The notes below the pieces were generated by a model. That model searched no databases, was not told the DNA's origin, and saw nothing but the letters and a program-made list of their open reading frames with translations. Shown piece by piece: positions 46,628 through 56,800 of a DNA stretch of 64,000 bases. Both the position numbers and the translations under genes were made by a program. The stretch's first letter is position 1. Each line of letters starts with the position of its first letter. The DNA lies in NCBI GenBank assembly GCA_021794355.1, contig JAJYRA010000029.1, positions 1-64,000 of the forward strand. Direction: 5' to 3'. This DNA is from Thermoplasmata archaeon (GTDB lineage Archaea; Thermoplasmatota; Thermoplasmata; Thermoplasmatales; Thermoplasmataceae).

Positions 46628-49600
46628 ATGATTATGCATAATAAATCCATAGTGATGATAGTTGCATTGATAATGGTGTTGATGGCTCTCTCTCCTGTGA
46701 TGGGTATGAATTTTGGAGGATCTTCCTCTGCGACTCATCATAAAACAATTTCTGTGGATGCCAGTAAAGGAAACAGTCCAAATTCTCCTTTGACAAATGC
46801 AACAAGTGCTTATTATAATAAGACAGCAGTATTGTCTGAAATTAAGGACAAAGGAATAGATTCAAAATATGCTTATCTTCCAAATATGAATTATAGATTG
46901 CCAGTCAAGAACGGCCTTGTTCAACCTGAGTATAGATCCTATCCTGCTCCAATGGGATTAAGTGATTTTGGCCTTAACACGACCAAGGGTGTCCTCTCGG
47001 CGTATAACTTGACCACCTCTTCGATCTCCAGTTCCCTTTCACTGAATAGTGCTGATGCTTTTTACGCAGGAAACCCATCTTTTCCGCATGGCTTTTCAGC
47101 CCAGTTGAATGCTGTCCTTAACGATGTTACCGTGAAAGGGAAGTCCTCATATGTCTTCTGGACCCAGAATGTGATGTTTTACTCATCACGAACACATCAG
47201 CTAATGTTCATAGACAATGTGTGGAATTTCTCGTCACCCTCCATGCCAAGGGGTACAATATATTCTGGAAATGGATTGGCAAATAATGCTTTCCCAACCT
47301 TCTATTATGACGTGGGACCAATCTTCACATTAAACTCTCCATTCAAAGTATCGCTTTATCTCAATTCTACCGTTATTGGGGGGAGGAGTACACTATTTTT
47401 TAACTACTCCATTAGATCTTCAACGGTCGATAATAGTGGGAGCTACGATAAGGTTGTTTTCAACTCAACTTATGGTATGCCCTCAGGTTACTCAGCACCT
47501 GCTCCACACTACCTCATCAGTGGTAACACTGTTACTCCGATGGGTCTTCTTAACGATGCGGAATTCATTCTTGGAGGGCCAGGAGGGGGCTCAACCGTCA
47601 GCATGTATTCATTGAACGCTACAATGGAACTGAAATATCTCTCCGCTTCCGGTGTGTATATGAATGTACCATCAGCTTACGACTATGGTACTGATACTGG
47701 TGAAACTTCGGAGGGTGTGGCAGTTGCATGGTCCCAAAGCGGTAAGGCAACGCTTACTACAGGACCCTCCCTTCTTTACGGGATGTGGAATGTTTCATCC
47801 ACGACGCAAATGAAATGGTATGCAGGAACAATCACACCGAGCAATTCCTTTGTTTTCGTGAATCCTGGTTCCGTGTATTCCATGCCAAACGCATCATGGG
47901 TCCCTCTTAGCATTGGAGGGAAATACAGGTTCGAACTTCCCAGCCAGCCATATGTAATGAACGTATCCCTCAGCGGCTACAGTCCAAAAGTGGAAAGCCT
48001 TTTGGGATCAATGTCAATTTCACTTAGCAGAGGTGGGTATGGCACATATACACCTCTATATGCAATGGGCAATAGTCAGATACCATACATTTCCTACAAA
48101 GGTTCTGGAACTGTGACAAATCAGTATATGCTATTCAATGGTTCGACAGGTCAATCTAGCAGCGTTTATTTGATTACCAATGACTTCGGGTACACCGTGT
48201 TCTTCGGTATGCTCATTTACAACGTAAGCTCATATGTCACGGCCGAGAATCAAACTCTCTTCACTTCAGGAACAGGTTTTGGCTTCGGTGTACCTCTTCC
48301 AGATATTATAATGCAGAGCTCAAATTTCTCATTACTATCATCTGTATTCGTTGTCAGTTCTCTTGATTTTTCAGTTAACCCTATTTTGACCGCGTCGTAT
48401 TCCTGTATGAGCTCAGCGTTAAACGTATTCAACTCCACAAGTGTCTACATTGGTGGAAATTACTTTGCTGGTTCTGCAACAGATCTCTATCTCTGGAATG
48501 GCACTGGAAACCTCATTTGGGGTAACAAATTTTTTAACAATCTCTCCTATTTTTCATTTGAAGGAATCGACATGAGTTCATCCGGAAATATGATTTACAA
48601 CAACTATTTCTGGGGTATGCTTTTCGATGTATTTGCAAAGCACTTTAACTATAATGGAACATTTACAACAAATTCATGGAATATAACCAGAGAAAGTGCC
48701 TCTATTTTACACTCATTCAATGGTTACGAATTTAAGGGAAGCATCATAGGAACATCCTATCAGGGAGGTAACTATTGGTGGAATTATGCAAACGAAACTC
48801 CTCCTTTCGATGACAATGGATTCATATGGGCCTCCAAATGGAGTTCCTCTGAACCTCAGGGCGATTTTGTTCCTCTGGTTGCCAATTACGCGCATTTCAT
48901 TGAGAAGGGACTACCGGCAAATATGACGCCTTTTTACCATATAATATTCAACAACACCTACGCCTTCTCAACCAACCATAGCAATGAGATAAGCCTTAAT
49001 GTTTTGAATGGAACATATCCATTTACGCTTCCAGTCGTGAATGAGATAAGTTTTCGAACTTTTACCACAATAACCAAATTCATCCCCTCGCCGACATCAG
49101 GGAATTTGAGTCTCGCAGGACATGTGGTAACCAAGGAAATAAACTTTACCGCAAATTACATCGTAAAATTCACTGAAACCGGTCTTCCAACTGGAACAGA
49201 ATGGTTTGTGAACCTTTCAACAGGGTCATACCACACAACCGGAAGCTACATTGATATTTATCTCCCCAATGCATCATACTCATACAGTATTGCTTCAACA
49301 GATAAGGCACTTCCAGTAAGGAGCGGAACATTTACGGTCAATGGAAAACCTCAAAGTGTTGCCGCTGTGTTCCCGGCTAAATACAGCCTGGAATTCATTG
49401 AGAAGGGATTACCGACCGGTACGCAGTGGGGCATCACAGTGAATAAGACACAATACACATCAACTTCAAACAGTATAAATGTTAAACTTACAAACGGAAT
49501 GTACAATGCACAGTTTAGTTCACCATCGGGATATTTCCCAACTCCATCACAATACCAGTTCACTGTTAATGGGGGAAATCAGTCATTTGAGATCTATTAT

Positions 49601-51364
49601 GCTCATTCCAGCGAAGAGAAATTCATAAACCCGATTGGGACAATATTCCCCGCAATAGAAAAGACCCTACCTGGAAGCGTGCTCAATACGAGTAACCATG
49701 ATTTATCTTTTGGCTCTGCTTTTGACAGTGGCAAGGGTCTTCTATTTATACCTATCCTTAATGAAAATAATATTTCCAAAAGTGGGATATATGTCTACAA
49801 CACCACGACGGGTGAATTTGTAAAAACCATAAGTACAATAGGTGAATATGATGCCGTTTACAATCCGTCCACAGGATTTGTTTATGCTATTTCAGCCAGT
49901 GGAAACCTGTCCGAGATAAACCCATCAACTTTAGAAATAGTCAAGAACGTATCTATCACTTCCCCTTCCAATGGTTTGGCTTTTCTAAATCAGCAGGGAA
50001 ACTACATCTATGCATACATCTCAGGTACAGGAAATATTGTGCAGATAGATGCCACAACCCTGGTTCTAACAAAAAACATCCCAGTTGGATCTTCTGCAGA
50101 TATAAGTCCCTTTTACACAGTAATGGGTGGAAACGCATACTTTGCAAATACAACTGGAGACAAAATTCTGATACTTAACCTAACGAGCAATACAATGAGA
50201 AAAGTAGTCTTGCCAGCGGACTATTCGCCATTGAGTGTAATTCACTACTTTGGATCAAAACTTCTTATTGGTGGCGAAAATTATTCGAATATTATATATA
50301 ATGTTTCCAGTTCAGCCATTACAGTGGGACCTAATATATCCGGGGTTGCAACTTCTGCCACTTATGATGCCATTTCACATTCATTGTATATCTCTTCGTT
50401 GCCCTATCATCTTAACGTTTTTGGTAACATCACTGAAGTCAATCCCGAAAACGGCAATATAATCGCTGAAATCCCTAGTCTTCCTGCTTTGGGTATAGTC
50501 TTCGTTTCATCAATGCAGGAGATATTTGCCAATAATTTCTTTGTTGGCTCTATTTCGTTATATTCAGTACAACACTATTACACGGTAACATTCACGGAAA
50601 CAGGTCTTCCATCAGGAACAACATGGTATGTGAACGGTACAGGTCTTGATTCTGGACCAATAACAGGATCAACTTATTCTGTAATGCTAACAAATGGTAC
50701 ATATGCATACACAATACAGACAAACAACAAGATCTATGAACCTTCACCATCCTCCGGATCAGTCACGGTTAACGGTGGTTCAAAGTCTGTACCTATAACA
50801 TTCTCCCAGGTTAAATATGCAGTAACATTCACGGAAACAGGTCTTCCTGCAGGAACAACATGGTACGTGAACGGTACAGGCATGCATGGCCACGCATCAG
50901 CACCTTCAAACATATCCTTCTCTCTGAACAATGGAACCTATGCATTCACTGTAACAAATCTGGGCAGCTACTACACGACAACATACAGTTTCACAGTAAA
51001 TGTTTCAGGAAAGAAGATCACTGAGACTGTTGATTATTATCACTGGGCCTACATAACTGGAACCATCTCTCCCAATAATGCAACACTCACAATAAACGGA
51101 AAAGCTGTTTCCATATCATCATCGGGTACATTCAATGTATCAGTTGAAACGGGAACATATCATGTTGTTGCCTCTCTCACTGGCTACCAATCATACTACA
51201 ACAACTTCACATTGACAGCTGGAAACATGAAAAATCTTTCAATCACCGTAGAACAGAACTCAAAGCCATCTACCATATCAACGGCAGAGATATACGGAAT
51301 AGTCGGTGCTGTTATTGCAATAGTGGTGATAGTTGGTGCAATAATGTTCTTTAGGAGGAAATAA
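46628..51364 (+). CDS. Giant thermopsin-domain surface protein
   Basis: A 1578-residue exported protein. A signal peptide covers residues about 1-30. Residues about 80-500 match thermopsin (family A5 acid protease), with SYVFWTQNVMFYSSRTHQLM, FIDNVWNFSS and TFYYDVGPI. Residues about 560-720 look like a parallel beta-helix (repeats of N-x-I-x-x-N-x-F). FTETGLP/FIEKGLP repeats start near 757, 847, 922, 1321 and 1400; residues about 1010-1315 form a beta-propeller-like region, and a PEGA-like domain is near 1474. One TM helix (1555-1577) with FFRRK ends the protein. It is rich in N-x-S/T sequons. It is likely anchored outside the cell, as an acid protease or an adhesive surface layer component. 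Confidence 0.85.
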   Translation: MIMHNKSIVMIVALIMVLMALSPVMGMNFGGSSSATHHKTISVDASKGNSPNSPLTNATSAYYNKTAVLSEIKDKGIDSKYAYLPNMNYRLPVKNGLVQPEYRSYPAPMGLSDFGLNTTKGVLSAYNLTTSSISSSLSLNSADAFYAGNPSFPHGFSAQLNAVLNDVTVKGKSSYVFWTQNVMFYSSRTHQLMFIDNVWNFSSPSMPRGTIYSGNGLANNAFPTFYYDVGPIFTLNSPFKVSLYLNSTVIGGRSTLFFNYSIRSSTVDNSGSYDKVVFNSTYGMPSGYSAPAPHYLISGNTVTPMGLLNDAEFILGGPGGGSTVSMYSLNATMELKYLSASGVYMNVPSAYDYGTDTGETSEGVAVAWSQSGKATLTTGPSLLYGMWNVSSTTQMKWYAGTITPSNSFVFVNPGSVYSMPNASWVPLSIGGKYRFELPSQPYVMNVSLSGYSPKVESLLGSMSISLSRGGYGTYTPLYAMGNSQIPYISYKGSGTVTNQYMLFNGSTGQSSSVYLITNDFGYTVFFGMLIYNVSSYVTAENQTLFTSGTGFGFGVPLPDIIMQSSNFSLLSSVFVVSSLDFSVNPILTASYSCMSSALNVFNSTSVYIGGNYFAGSATDLYLWNGTGNLIWGNKFFNNLSYFSFEGIDMSSSGNMIYNNYFWGMLFDVFAKHFNYNGTFTTNSWNITRESASILHSFNGYEFKGSIIGTSYQGGNYWWNYANETPPFDDNGFIWASKWSSSEPQGDFVPLVANYAHFIEKGLPANMTPFYHIIFNNTYAFSTNHSNEISLNVLNGTYPFTLPVVNEISFRTFTTITKFIPSPTSGNLSLAGHVVTKEINFTANYIVKFTETGLPTGTEWFVNLSTGSYHTTGSYIDIYLPNASYSYSIASTDKALPVRSGTFTVNGKPQSVAAVFPAKYSLEFIEKGLPTGTQWGITVNKTQYTSTSNSINVKLTNGMYNAQFSSPSGYFPTPSQYQFTVNGGNQSFEIYYAHSSEEKFINPIGTIFPAIEKTLPGSVLNTSNHDLSFGSAFDSGKGLLFIPILNENNISKSGIYVYNTTTGEFVKTISTIGEYDAVYNPSTGFVYAISASGNLSEINPSTLEIVKNVSITSPSNGLAFLNQQGNYIYAYISGTGNIVQIDATTLVLTKNIPVGSSADISPFYTVMGGNAYFANTTGDKILILNLTSNTMRKVVLPADYSPLSVIHYFGSKLLIGGENYSNIIYNVSSSAITVGPNISGVATSATYDAISHSLYISSLPYHLNVFGNITEVNPENGNIIAEIPSLPALGIVFVSSMQEIFANNFFVGSISLYSVQHYYTVTFTETGLPSGTTWYVNGTGLDSGPITGSTYSVMLTNGTYAYTIQTNNKIYEPSPSSGSVTVNGGSKSVPITFSQVKYAVTFTETGLPAGTTWYVNGTGMHGHASAPSNISFSLNNGTYAFTVTNLGSYYTTTYSFTVNVSGKKITETVDYYHWAYITGTISPNNATLTINGKAVSISSSGTFNVSVETGTYHVVASLTGYQSYYNNFTLTAGNMKNLSITVEQNSKPSTISTAEIYGIVGAVIAIVVIVGAIMFFRRK

Positions 51365-52470: not shown

Positions 52471-53019
52471 TCATATTGACCCATAATTTTGATCTCTTTT
52501 AAAGTATTGCACCACGTGTGGTCTTGTGAAATAATACAGGAATACAATTCCGAGTATGGTTCCAACGGGGAAGTTGAAAAGAGAGAGGACGGAAAATATC
52601 ATCATGAGGATTCTTGCCCAGTTCTTTCCGGTTAAAAGGGAAAGGGAAGCGATAAGGAATAGTATCCCTATGAACGCGAATACTATAAATAAGATTGGAA
52701 ACAGAGCACCAAATAAAACACCCATACCTATATCTACAAGTCCTCCAAGGAAGCCTAGTATGGCAAGTATTACAACTCCATCCGGCCTTTCTACCTGCCT
52801 TGGTATGCTTGAAAAATTCGATGACCCACAATTGGAACAAACTGCATTAGAAAACGGATTTCTGGCTCCACAATTAATACAGTATTTCACTCTTTCTGCA
52901 TTTCCTATGGGTTGAATTGTTTCTCCGGCATTTCCCGTGGTATTCATCTGGTATCCACAATGATCGCAAAACTCAGCATTATCTGGCACTGCAGCACTAC
53001 AATTAGGACATACTTTCAT
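52471..53019 (-). CDS. Double zinc-ribbon membrane protein
   Basis: A 182-residue protein with two zinc ribbons: CPNCSAAVPDNAEFCDHC at residues 4-21 and CINCGARNPFSNAVCSNC at about 47-64. Three to four TM helices follow (from about residue 80), ending KRDQNYGSI. Similar zinc-ribbon plus membrane domain proteins are frequent in archaea; the function is unknown. It is monocistronic. The other zinc-ribbon membrane protein, at 54902-56026, has the opposite domain order. Confidence 0.75.
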   Translation of the reverse strand: MKVCPNCSAAVPDNAEFCDHCGYQMNTTGNAGETIQPIGNAERVKYCINCGARNPFSNAVCSNCGSSNFSSIPRQVERPDGVVILAILGFLGGLVDIGMGVLFGALFPILFIVFAFIGILFLIASLSLLTGKNWARILMMIFSVLSLFNFPVGTILGIVFLYYFTRPHVVQYFKRDQNYGSI

Positions 53020-53818: not shown

Positions 53819-54940
53819 ATGGGAAGATTTTCTGCCAACATTGAAACATCATACATATTTGCTTTCTCAACAGTTTTATTTTCCATGGCTTGGTTCTGGC
53901 TCAGTTTTACCTTTCCACTAAGGCTTGTTTCATTAAATTATAACTATTTCCAGATAGGTGCAATTGGCACTTCTGCATCCATTCCCTTTATTCTCATTTC
54001 GTACCTTTACAGGAAATCAAAGAAGGTACATTTGAACCTGGCCCTGAAGCTACCCTTTTTGGTCATGATTGTAGGTTCCCTTCTCCTTCTTTTGGGAAAC
54101 GATAAAAATTCAATTTATATAGGTATAATAGTTTTCACAGGGTTTTTCCAGAGTATGTGGTGGATTTCAGCGGAAATTGAAACGGGCCTTCTCGATCGTG
54201 AGGGTATGGCAGAAAAATATTCTGCAGCATGGGCTATTCCCACAGGGATCTTTCCACTTTTCTCAGGGCTTATGCTTCAATATATTGGATTTTATTCCGT
54301 TTATATAATTGTCCTTCTGCTATCAATAATTGGATTTTTCATTCAACCGATTGATTCAATGGAAAGGGTAAAAAGAAAGGCCAGCAGAAGGATCAATTAC
54401 AGGCTTATAGTCCCAATGTCTTTCACAGGAGTGGGTATGGGATTTATCACTTTTGTCGTTGTGCCCATAATCAGACACAGCAACTATTCCTATCTCCTCA
54501 TAGGATTTTTGCTAACAATATACTGGGTTATGTTTGCAATTGGATCCATTTACGCAAATTTCACGCACATAAAGGATCAGAGAGTATTTTCCATACTTTC
54601 CTGCCTCCTTTCAGCATTCCCTATTATATTGATATTTGGATTCAATATCTTCCTGCTGGCCATTTCGCTGGCAATGTCAGGATTTGGAGGTAGCATGGGA
54701 TTCTCAAAAATTCTCAGTTATGTCAATAAAACTGAGAGCCCCAGAGATGGGGTCTTTTTTTATGAAAGCTTCTTCTCCTTTGGATTTATTACTGGCACTT
54801 TCCTTGGAGGTTTCCTTGCCTTTTATGTAAATATATATCTTGCATTGATCGTTTTCTTACCGGCCATTTTATACTCAATTTACCTGTCCCTATGGAGAGA
54901 ACTAGATCCTATAATTTTTGTTCCTTCCAACCCTGAATGA
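53819..54940 (+). CDS. MFS-like transporter
   Basis: A 373-residue membrane protein with about twelve helices and the MFS two-halves pattern, though the loop 2-3 motif is weak (YRKSKKVHLNL). GFFQSMWWISAEIETGLLDR and SFFSFGFITGTFLGGFLAFY are typical helix-end segments of sugar- or drug-type carriers. The substrate is unknown. Its 3' end overlaps the convergent zinc-ribbon membrane protein gene by 39 bases. Confidence 0.72.
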   Translation: MGRFSANIETSYIFAFSTVLFSMAWFWLSFTFPLRLVSLNYNYFQIGAIGTSASIPFILISYLYRKSKKVHLNLALKLPFLVMIVGSLLLLLGNDKNSIYIGIIVFTGFFQSMWWISAEIETGLLDREGMAEKYSAAWAIPTGIFPLFSGLMLQYIGFYSVYIIVLLLSIIGFFIQPIDSMERVKRKASRRINYRLIVPMSFTGVGMGFITFVVVPIIRHSNYSYLLIGFLLTIYWVMFAIGSIYANFTHIKDQRVFSILSCLLSAFPIILIFGFNIFLLAISLAMSGFGGSMGFSKILSYVNKTESPRDGVFFYESFFSFGFITGTFLGGFLAFYVNIYLALIVFLPAILYSIYLSLWRELDPIIFVPSNPE

Positions 54941-56026
54941 CTGAAATTCTGTCTCCTTGCCGGTCCATATACTTTTGCATTTTTTACATTCCAAATCGCC
55001 TGAATTCTTAATGTAAAACTCCACGGAATCACAGTGCGGACAAACTCCCCTTATGAAGAGCTGTTCGGGAATGTTCCTGGAATCTACTAGGACATTCTTG
55101 TTTTGGCCTGACTTCGGATTCTTGAATTGCTCACCCTGAACCCTATTCGTTTGACCCGATTCCTCACCAGCACTTTCGCTTTGAGATTCAGGCTTTGCCC
55201 TTGCAGGAATATTTGAACTGAAGAATATACTGGTAATGAACCCCAAAAATGCAAATACAAGGATGAGAATGGGATATGCAATTCCTGTCACAGATTTTAG
55301 TACCAATTCTATGGAACCTGACCCGAATGAAAGAAAAACCAGAAAAATAGATAATAATATACCATACCGCTTTGCGAAAATGAACAAAATTGTGAAAATT
55401 AAGAAAAAGAATAGAAACTCATAACCTGTAAAACCATAGAAGATGTAAAAGAAAAAAGCCGCTATGGCAGCCGGAACCAACGTGTATGCATATTTGAATA
55501 AATCCTGTTCCCTATCTCCATCAATGAATGAAGAGAATATGGATGAAGAATTGGAATGGATCAATGGAACAAAAAACAGGGAAAGGATGATCAGGAGAAG
55601 GGATGTGATTATAACAACCTGCTCATAATAGGCAGCTAGACCATATATACCCACGAGTCTGTCAATATGTGGTACCGGTGGGGTGATTGAGGATAGAAGG
55701 GAAAGCATGAGGAATATGAAAAGGAAGCCCTGGGCCACCGGAACTTTTGAAAAACTTCCAGTTTTTGATGGTGTTGTATCGGCCCTGTGAACATAATGAA
55801 CCACCGTCACGATACCCAACAACAACGAGCCCATGGTGGTTATAAGGAAAGTAATTTTCACATTTACCAAAATAAAAAATAAGGAATCCACAGCATACTT
55901 TGTAAATAAGGGCTCTCCAGAAAGCAAATATTTTGAATATAGGGCCATTGTTACCATTATTGTTAAAACAGCTATGATGGAAGCTATAAAAATCTCCACA
56001 GTGTTTAAGACCCTCTTTATTTCCAT
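54902..56026 (-). CDS. Multi-TM protein with C-terminal zinc ribbon
   Basis: A 374-residue protein: about seven to eight TM helices in the first 270 residues, a polar linker rich in Ser, Glu and Gln, then a zinc ribbon (CPHCDSVEFYIKNSGDLECK, with CKKC) at about 335-352. I recognise no family. The gene end overlaps the convergent MFS gene by 39 bases. The zinc ribbon may carry a cytosolic nucleic-acid or protein contact. Confidence 0.6.
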   Translation of the reverse strand: MEIKRVLNTVEIFIASIIAVLTIMVTMALYSKYLLSGEPLFTKYAVDSLFFILVNVKITFLITTMGSLLLGIVTVVHYVHRADTTPSKTGSFSKVPVAQGFLFIFLMLSLLSSITPPVPHIDRLVGIYGLAAYYEQVVIITSLLLIILSLFFVPLIHSNSSSIFSSFIDGDREQDLFKYAYTLVPAAIAAFFFYIFYGFTGYEFLFFFLIFTILFIFAKRYGILLSIFLVFLSFGSGSIELVLKSVTGIAYPILILVFAFLGFITSIFFSSNIPARAKPESQSESAGEESGQTNRVQGEQFKNPKSGQNKNVLVDSRNIPEQLFIRGVCPHCDSVEFYIKNSGDLECKKCKSIWTGKETEFQSFRVGRNKNYRI

Positions 56027-56086: not shown

Positions 56087-56800
56087 TTATTGAAGGGAGA
56101 GATTAACTCTTGTTCCAACTTTTCCCTTTATGAGATTCGTTTTGAGCTTGATCTGTCCAACTTCCTTTGTATTCTTAACCAAAGTTCCCATTTCAAGCTG
56201 TTCCGGAAGGCCTTTTATCTTCGCCACCCTCAATGTTGGAATATCAGGAACCTTTCCCTTGATTGAAGCCATCAATTCGCTGTTTTTCATGAACTCATCC
56301 CTGCTCATGCTAACATATTCAACTTCCACTTCGCTTTTCAATAACTCATTCGTTTCATTCTCCAGCTGTCTTACCTTTTCCTCGGATATGTCATCTATTT
56401 CCAGATCTATCCAGGCATAGTCTTCATAGGTCTGATTTATTCTGTGAGGGGCGGAAAAATCTTTATACGCGAGACCTGCAAGTACCCTCAGTGCTGTCCT
56501 GAATTTCATATGGTTATATCTTGTGCTCCAGTCTACAACCTCCTTAATGGTCTTTCCCTTGCTGTCTGCTGGATATGTATCATGAGAGATCAGGTGAACC
56601 CCATCTCCATCGTCCCAGACATCTATAATCTCAAATTCCTTTCCATCTATGATTATCTTTCCTTTATCGTTGGGCTGGCCGTATGATGTTGGGTACAGTA
56701 TGCTATCATCAACGATTATATCCGTAAATTCGTTGAAAGTAACGTTTCCTTCCCACTCCACCCTATAAGCATCTTCAAGATATCTGTGTATTGTTGGCAT
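56087..56800 (-). CDS. AlaX-like protein lacking the zinc site
   Basis: A 237-residue homologue of AlaX, the free-standing editing domain that removes Ser or Gly from tRNA-Ala. LYPTSYGQPNDKG (36-48) and the C-terminal VKNTKEVGQIKL align well. However, the first zinc motif HxxxH reads R101-TAL-R105 and the second (C-GGTH) reads E203-MGT-L207, so all four ligands are gone. Without zinc the editing reaction as known is not possible. It may bind tRNA without hydrolysing it, act on another substrate, or be a decaying gene; the conserved remaining sequence argues against recent decay. Confidence 0.8.
   Translation of the reverse strand: MPTIHRYLEDAYRVEWEGNVTFNEFTDIIVDDSILYPTSYGQPNDKGKIIIDGKEFEIIDVWDDGDGVHLISHDTYPADSKGKTIKEVVDWSTRYNHMKFRTALRVLAGLAYKDFSAPHRINQTYEDYAWIDLEIDDISEEKVRQLENETNELLKSEVEVEYVSMSRDEFMKNSELMASIKGKVPDIPTLRVAKIKGLPEQLEMGTLVKNTKEVGQIKLKTNLIKGKVGTRVNLSLQ

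Follow-up and report, generated by a model that had tools for sequence, protein, structure and literature searches.

A conserved archaeal AlaX-M paralogue without zinc ligands, probably kept for a non-enzymatic role

The AlaX-like gene and its fold

The DNA analysed here, referred to as the window, is a stretch of 64,000 nucleotides from a Thermoplasmata archaeon (assembly GCA_021794355.1, contig JAJYRA010000029.1, positions 1 to 64,000). On its reverse strand, at 56087–56800, lies a gene for a 237-residue AlaX-M-like protein lacking the zinc ligands of the editing site, which was identified from its open reading frame, the NCBIfam model NF040865, an AlphaFold model and structure matching. On the 3′ side of this gene, 60 nt away and on the same strand (54902–56026), lies a gene for a 374-residue membrane protein, for which about eight long hydrophobic helices are predicted, together with a C-terminal Cys4 zinc ribbon.

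In the translated frame, RTALR (residues 101–105; 56486–56500, reverse strand) occupies the site of HxxxH, i.e., zinc ligands 1 and 2, and EMGTL (residues 203–207; 56180–56194, reverse strand) occupies the C/D-GGTH site of ligands 3 and 4. Alignment places both segments in the columns of the HxxxH and C-GGTH motifs of canonical AlaX and of solved AlaRS editing domains, confirming the motif assignments of a preliminary description made from the letters of the window. Two further residues are invariant among the zinc-less orthologues described below: Arg120 (56441–56443, reverse strand), which is Thr in canonical AlaX, and Trp130 (56411–56413, reverse strand), whose column is always Arg in canonical AlaX-M and is Arg also in the aligned Pyrococcus AlaRS chain.

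The AlaXM model NF040865 matches residues 7–236 with an E-value of 6e-48. The score of 163.6 bits is below the curated cut-off of 300 bits, as is that of the canonical AlaX from the same genome, which carries all motifs (279.7 bits). The Pfam tRNA_SAD model matches the window protein weakly, and some of its orthologues score below the Pfam cut-off. The AlphaFold model (mean pLDDT 92.8, pTM 0.90) has as its top structural match the Pyrococcus AlaRS editing region (Z 27, 234 residues), and matches the AlaX-M structures at 25–27% identity, with VIA Z scores of 25.0 for P. furiosus 9IUW (rmsd 2.0 over 207) and 23.7 for P. horikoshii and with Foldseek TM values of 0.77–0.79. Weaker matches are AlaX-S (Z about 17.5), the ThrRS N2 domain (Z 16.0) and mL39 (Z about 12). 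According to the model and these matches, the AlaX-M architecture of an N-terminal barrel followed by a SAD editing domain is present. The protein thus resembles AlaX-M (AlaXp-M; PDB 2E1B, 9IUW; NF040865) in its full-length fold, domain order, Gly-rich loop and many core residues, and the earlier statement that the rest of the fold is well kept is borne out by the family-model and full-length structural matches. However, it differs from AlaX-M in that three ligand histidines are replaced and the Cys position is acidic, in the exchange of the RxD Arg for Trp, and in a set of invariant residues of its own.

Distribution, ligand history and constraint

Of the 77 genomes sampled from one family, evidently Thermoplasmataceae, 69 carry an orthologue of the zinc-less protein, and a profile search gave the same result; the family includes genomes that we take to be those of T. 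acidophilum, T. volcanium, Ferroplasma, Picrophilus and Cuniculiplasma divulgatum. All 35 family genomes that are at least 90% complete carry the gene, and the eight genomes without it are all at most 86% complete. Both sampled genomes of one genus (g4) are without it. In one of these (G014; L157), the membrane-protein gene lies between the genes for ribosomal protein L10e and an MFS protein, with the AlaX-like gene absent there, so a secondary loss in that genus is likely. Outside the family, a search of 350 genomes from the class at E 1e-55 found no zinc-less AlaX, and the profile search returned only canonical-level AlaX scores from the other genomes of the order. Close relatives with retained ligands, regarded in the preliminary description as a sign of recent decay, were looked for among Thermoplasmatales and were not found.

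In a tree of AlaX-type sequences only, computed after removal of the motif columns, all 68 zinc-less rows fall into one clade (SH-aLRT 100, stem length 1.1). This clade, on its long stem, branches with the Asp-type AlaX-M of the order and apart from Cys-type AlaX, its exact sister being uncertain. The phylogeny indicates a single origin in the ancestor of Thermoplasmataceae. The genome of the window also encodes a canonical AlaX-M on another contig (C33) with HTAIH and DGGTH, and an AlaRS whose editing site is intact, with HTSTH and CGGTH. The third SAD match of this genome lies inside a 672-residue frame on contig C89, which is probably ThrRS. One draft genome (G084) apparently holds two pairs of AlaX-like and membrane-protein genes, at C69:15985–16680 and C64:2799–3074 (L089, L156), one of them ended by a contig edge, and this seems to be a duplication or a mixed assembly.

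The preliminary description had all four zinc ligands lost. This holds in comparison with Pyrococcus AlaX-M and AlaRS, whose ligand set is H-H-C-H; however, the canonical AlaX-M of this order has H-H-D-H, with Asp at the Cys position in 43 of 43 scorable sequences (QADGGTH and similar). The acid at position 203, which is Glu or Asp in the zinc-less clade, was therefore inherited, and the loss specific to this lineage is that of three histidines. Position 101 is Arg in every clade member and His in every canonical AlaX, position 105 (the second His) is Arg, Lys, Phe or Tyr, and position 207 (the third His) is Leu, Asn, Gln, Asp, Tyr or Val, with His retained in 8 of 68 sequences, all from three genera (g3, g25 and g29). 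Co-change between position 105 (basic or aromatic) and position 203 (Glu or Asp) was tested statistically as evidence for a contact. The counts are near-perfect, but since the tree shows a single change between basic and aromatic, this co-change is one event and was rejected as contact evidence. The Cys-to-Asp exchange of canonical AlaX-M is itself a natural change at a zinc-ligand position, seen at loci such as L049:265–990 and in other families (L027–L033).

Mean pairwise identity is 0.53 for the zinc-less protein and likewise 0.53 for canonical AlaX (351 genome pairs). The dN/dS of the zinc-less gene is 0.04–0.13 for the computable pairs within the genus of the window, many pairs being saturated at synonymous sites. 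Judged from these comparisons, selection on the zinc-less protein is purifying and the constraint matches that on the active canonical AlaX. Relative to canonical AlaX-M, five positions switched and then became fixed (H101R, T120R, I124T, R130W and D199P); the Arg of the R-x-D strand is present in 100% of canonical AlaX-M, whereas every clade member has Trp130. Newly invariant in the clade are E24-F25-T26-D27, N44, D64, S72 and D74, and W62 is almost invariant; the Gly-rich loop G41-Q-x-N-D45 has been retained. The zinc-less proteins are also more acidic (mean pI 5.1, net charge −8.8) than canonical AlaX (pI 5.9, net charge −5.8).

The membrane-protein neighbour

The membrane protein neighbours the zinc-less AlaX in all 57 genomes that have the corresponding flank, immediately adjacent in 49 and with one predicted ORF between in 8, and the gaps between the two genes are often only 4–32 nt. 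In the five genomes of Thermoplasma type the two genes remain adjacent, but the membrane gene is inverted. The opposite flank has been repeatedly rearranged: it carries folC/orc in about 32 genomes, a truA-like gene in genomes of the Ferroplasma type and unrelated genes in others. In some genera a gene resembling those for tRNA pseudouridine synthases, identified by eye, lies near the zinc-less gene. Two further genes of the window were recorded. The gene at 52471–53019 (reverse strand), near the L10e (uL16) and ribbon membrane-protein genes, encodes a small membrane protein whose N-terminal part bears two zinc-ribbon-like Cys clusters. The gene at 46628–51364 (forward strand) encodes an apparent surface protein of 1578 residues in which FTETGLPxGTTWYVN units recur and a hydrophobic segment lies at the C-terminus.

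The membrane protein evolves fast, with about 15% identity across the family, yet the Cys4 ribbon (C329, C332, C347 and C350) is invariant in 18 sequences. Family-model searches returned no named family for it, and its AlphaFold model is poor (pLDDT 63.9). Weaker homologues occur without an AlaX-like gene in several other families of the order and in genus g4; their neighbours in the other families gave no functional clue. This occurrence elsewhere suggests that the membrane protein is older than the partnership and that the zinc-less AlaX joined a pre-existing membrane protein.

Possible function and rival explanations

The earlier view that the coordinated loss reflects a new role and not random decay finds strong support in the family-wide clade of single origin, the invariant His-to-Arg exchange and the purifying selection, and is further backed by retention of the gene alongside an intact AlaX and AlaRS. 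If the protein were a decaying or recently inactivated AlaX without function, the scores of some members below the Pfam SAD cut-off would be expected; however, one ancient origin, presence in every near-complete family genome, intact frames, low dN/dS and lineage-specific invariants rule out random decay, which retains virtually no probability.

Since the active site was lost in the ancestor and yet nearly every family member keeps the gene, the protein probably has a non-enzymatic job. We consider it rather likely that this AlaX-M paralogue is a pseudoenzyme kept as a non-editing binding or adaptor protein, probably together with the neighbouring membrane protein. Two precedents show what such folds can become, namely the AlaX-like domain of Plasmodium TrpRS and the mitoribosomal protein mL39, both described below. 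Editing of the AlaX type appears unlikely because the metal ligands are missing and Trp has replaced the RxD Arg. Arg101, together with Arg120, may substitute for the metal and would probably face the acid retained at position 203, a contact suggested by the metal site shared with the parent family. With the metal site replaced in this way, the pocket would bind or hold a ligand without hydrolysing it, and the protein could act as a soluble adaptor working with the membrane protein, its client most likely being a protein or the acceptor end of an RNA.

Loss of zinc by itself is no proof of lost hydrolysis, since the homologous editing site of ThrRS is generally regarded as zinc-independent. 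The protein might then still hydrolyse aminoacyl-tRNA or another aminoacyl ester by a new zinc-independent mechanism on a new substrate, with Arg101, Arg120 and the acid at 203 as the new active site. The pocket is indeed not merely broken, as a number of polar residues within and near it have become invariant, and the retained Gly-rich loop and the strong purifying selection would suit an enzyme. However, positions 105 and 207 may each be basic, aromatic or small, a variability that is unusual in catalytic sites, and the RxD Arg, invariant in canonical AlaX-M, is lost here. The N2 domain of ThrRS (PDB 1TJE) shares the homologous SAD fold but retains a His/His/Cys/His set that is absent from the zinc-less protein. 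We regard continued hydrolysis as improbable. A pseudoenzyme that only binds the tRNA acceptor end, e.g., protecting or delivering Ala-tRNA, with no special tie to the membrane protein, would be consistent with the retained AlaX-M fold and N-terminal barrel and with the pseudouridine synthase-like gene nearby in some genera. A published precedent also exists in Plasmodium falciparum, whose TrpRS carries an AlaX-like domain with Asp, Ser, Asn and Val at the four zinc-ligand positions; this region supports binding and aminoacylation of tRNA, and a role in tRNA binding instead of editing has been attributed to it (PMC3680381). That domain differs, however, in being of the AlaX-S type and fused to TrpRS in alveolates, whereas the present protein is a free-standing archaeal AlaX-M paralogue encoded beside a membrane-protein gene, with Arg, Arg/Lys/Phe/Tyr, Glu/Asp and a variable residue at the four positions. 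Binding of tRNA alone is made doubtful by the greater acidity compared with the active paralogue and by the Arg-to-Trp exchange, and it leaves the persistent membrane-protein neighbour unexplained; we regard it as improbable, to the same degree as continued hydrolysis.

For the pseudoenzyme and adaptor explanation, binding of tRNA or protein without hydrolysis, as proposed earlier, is a plausible specific role. The acidic character would mildly disfavour tRNA or RNA binding, so that an RNA client is no more likely than a protein one, and a protein partner is also suggested by the conserved membrane-protein neighbour. Adjacency alone does not prove an interaction, because the orientation is opposite in Thermoplasma and the membrane protein occurs elsewhere without the zinc-less AlaX.

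In the open literature searched, no description was found of a zinc-less archaeal AlaX or of a Thermoplasma AlaX paralogue. Zinc-less AlaX domains are known in alveolates; a family-wide archaeal paralogue is apparently undescribed in that literature, and its constant pairing with an eight-helix Cys4-ribbon membrane protein is new here. The protein offers a clean natural case in which a tRNA-editing protein lost its catalytic metal once and stayed under selection as strong as that on the active enzyme, beside which it persists across the whole family. Automatic annotation probably labels it "alanyl-tRNA editing protein", which would mislead. Neither protein has a described function, and the membrane protein is a concrete candidate partner.

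A more tentative possibility, argued by analogy and held with low confidence, is that the zinc-less AlaX associates with the Cys4-ribbon membrane protein in a complex that tethers a cytosolic client, such as tRNA or the ribosome, to the membrane. If so, a proofreading enzyme would have been converted into a membrane-coupled adaptor in Thermoplasmataceae. This arrangement is likened to mL39, described in a review as a mitoribosomal protein related to the ThrRS N-terminus and located at the peptide exit near the membrane (PMC4099522). mL39 is a ThrRS-derived, stable ribosomal protein of eukaryotes, whereas the present protein is an archaeal AlaX-M paralogue whose link to the ribosome would be by analogy. 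Common to the two is an editing-domain fold recruited outside a synthetase, and their structural match extends over 147 residues.
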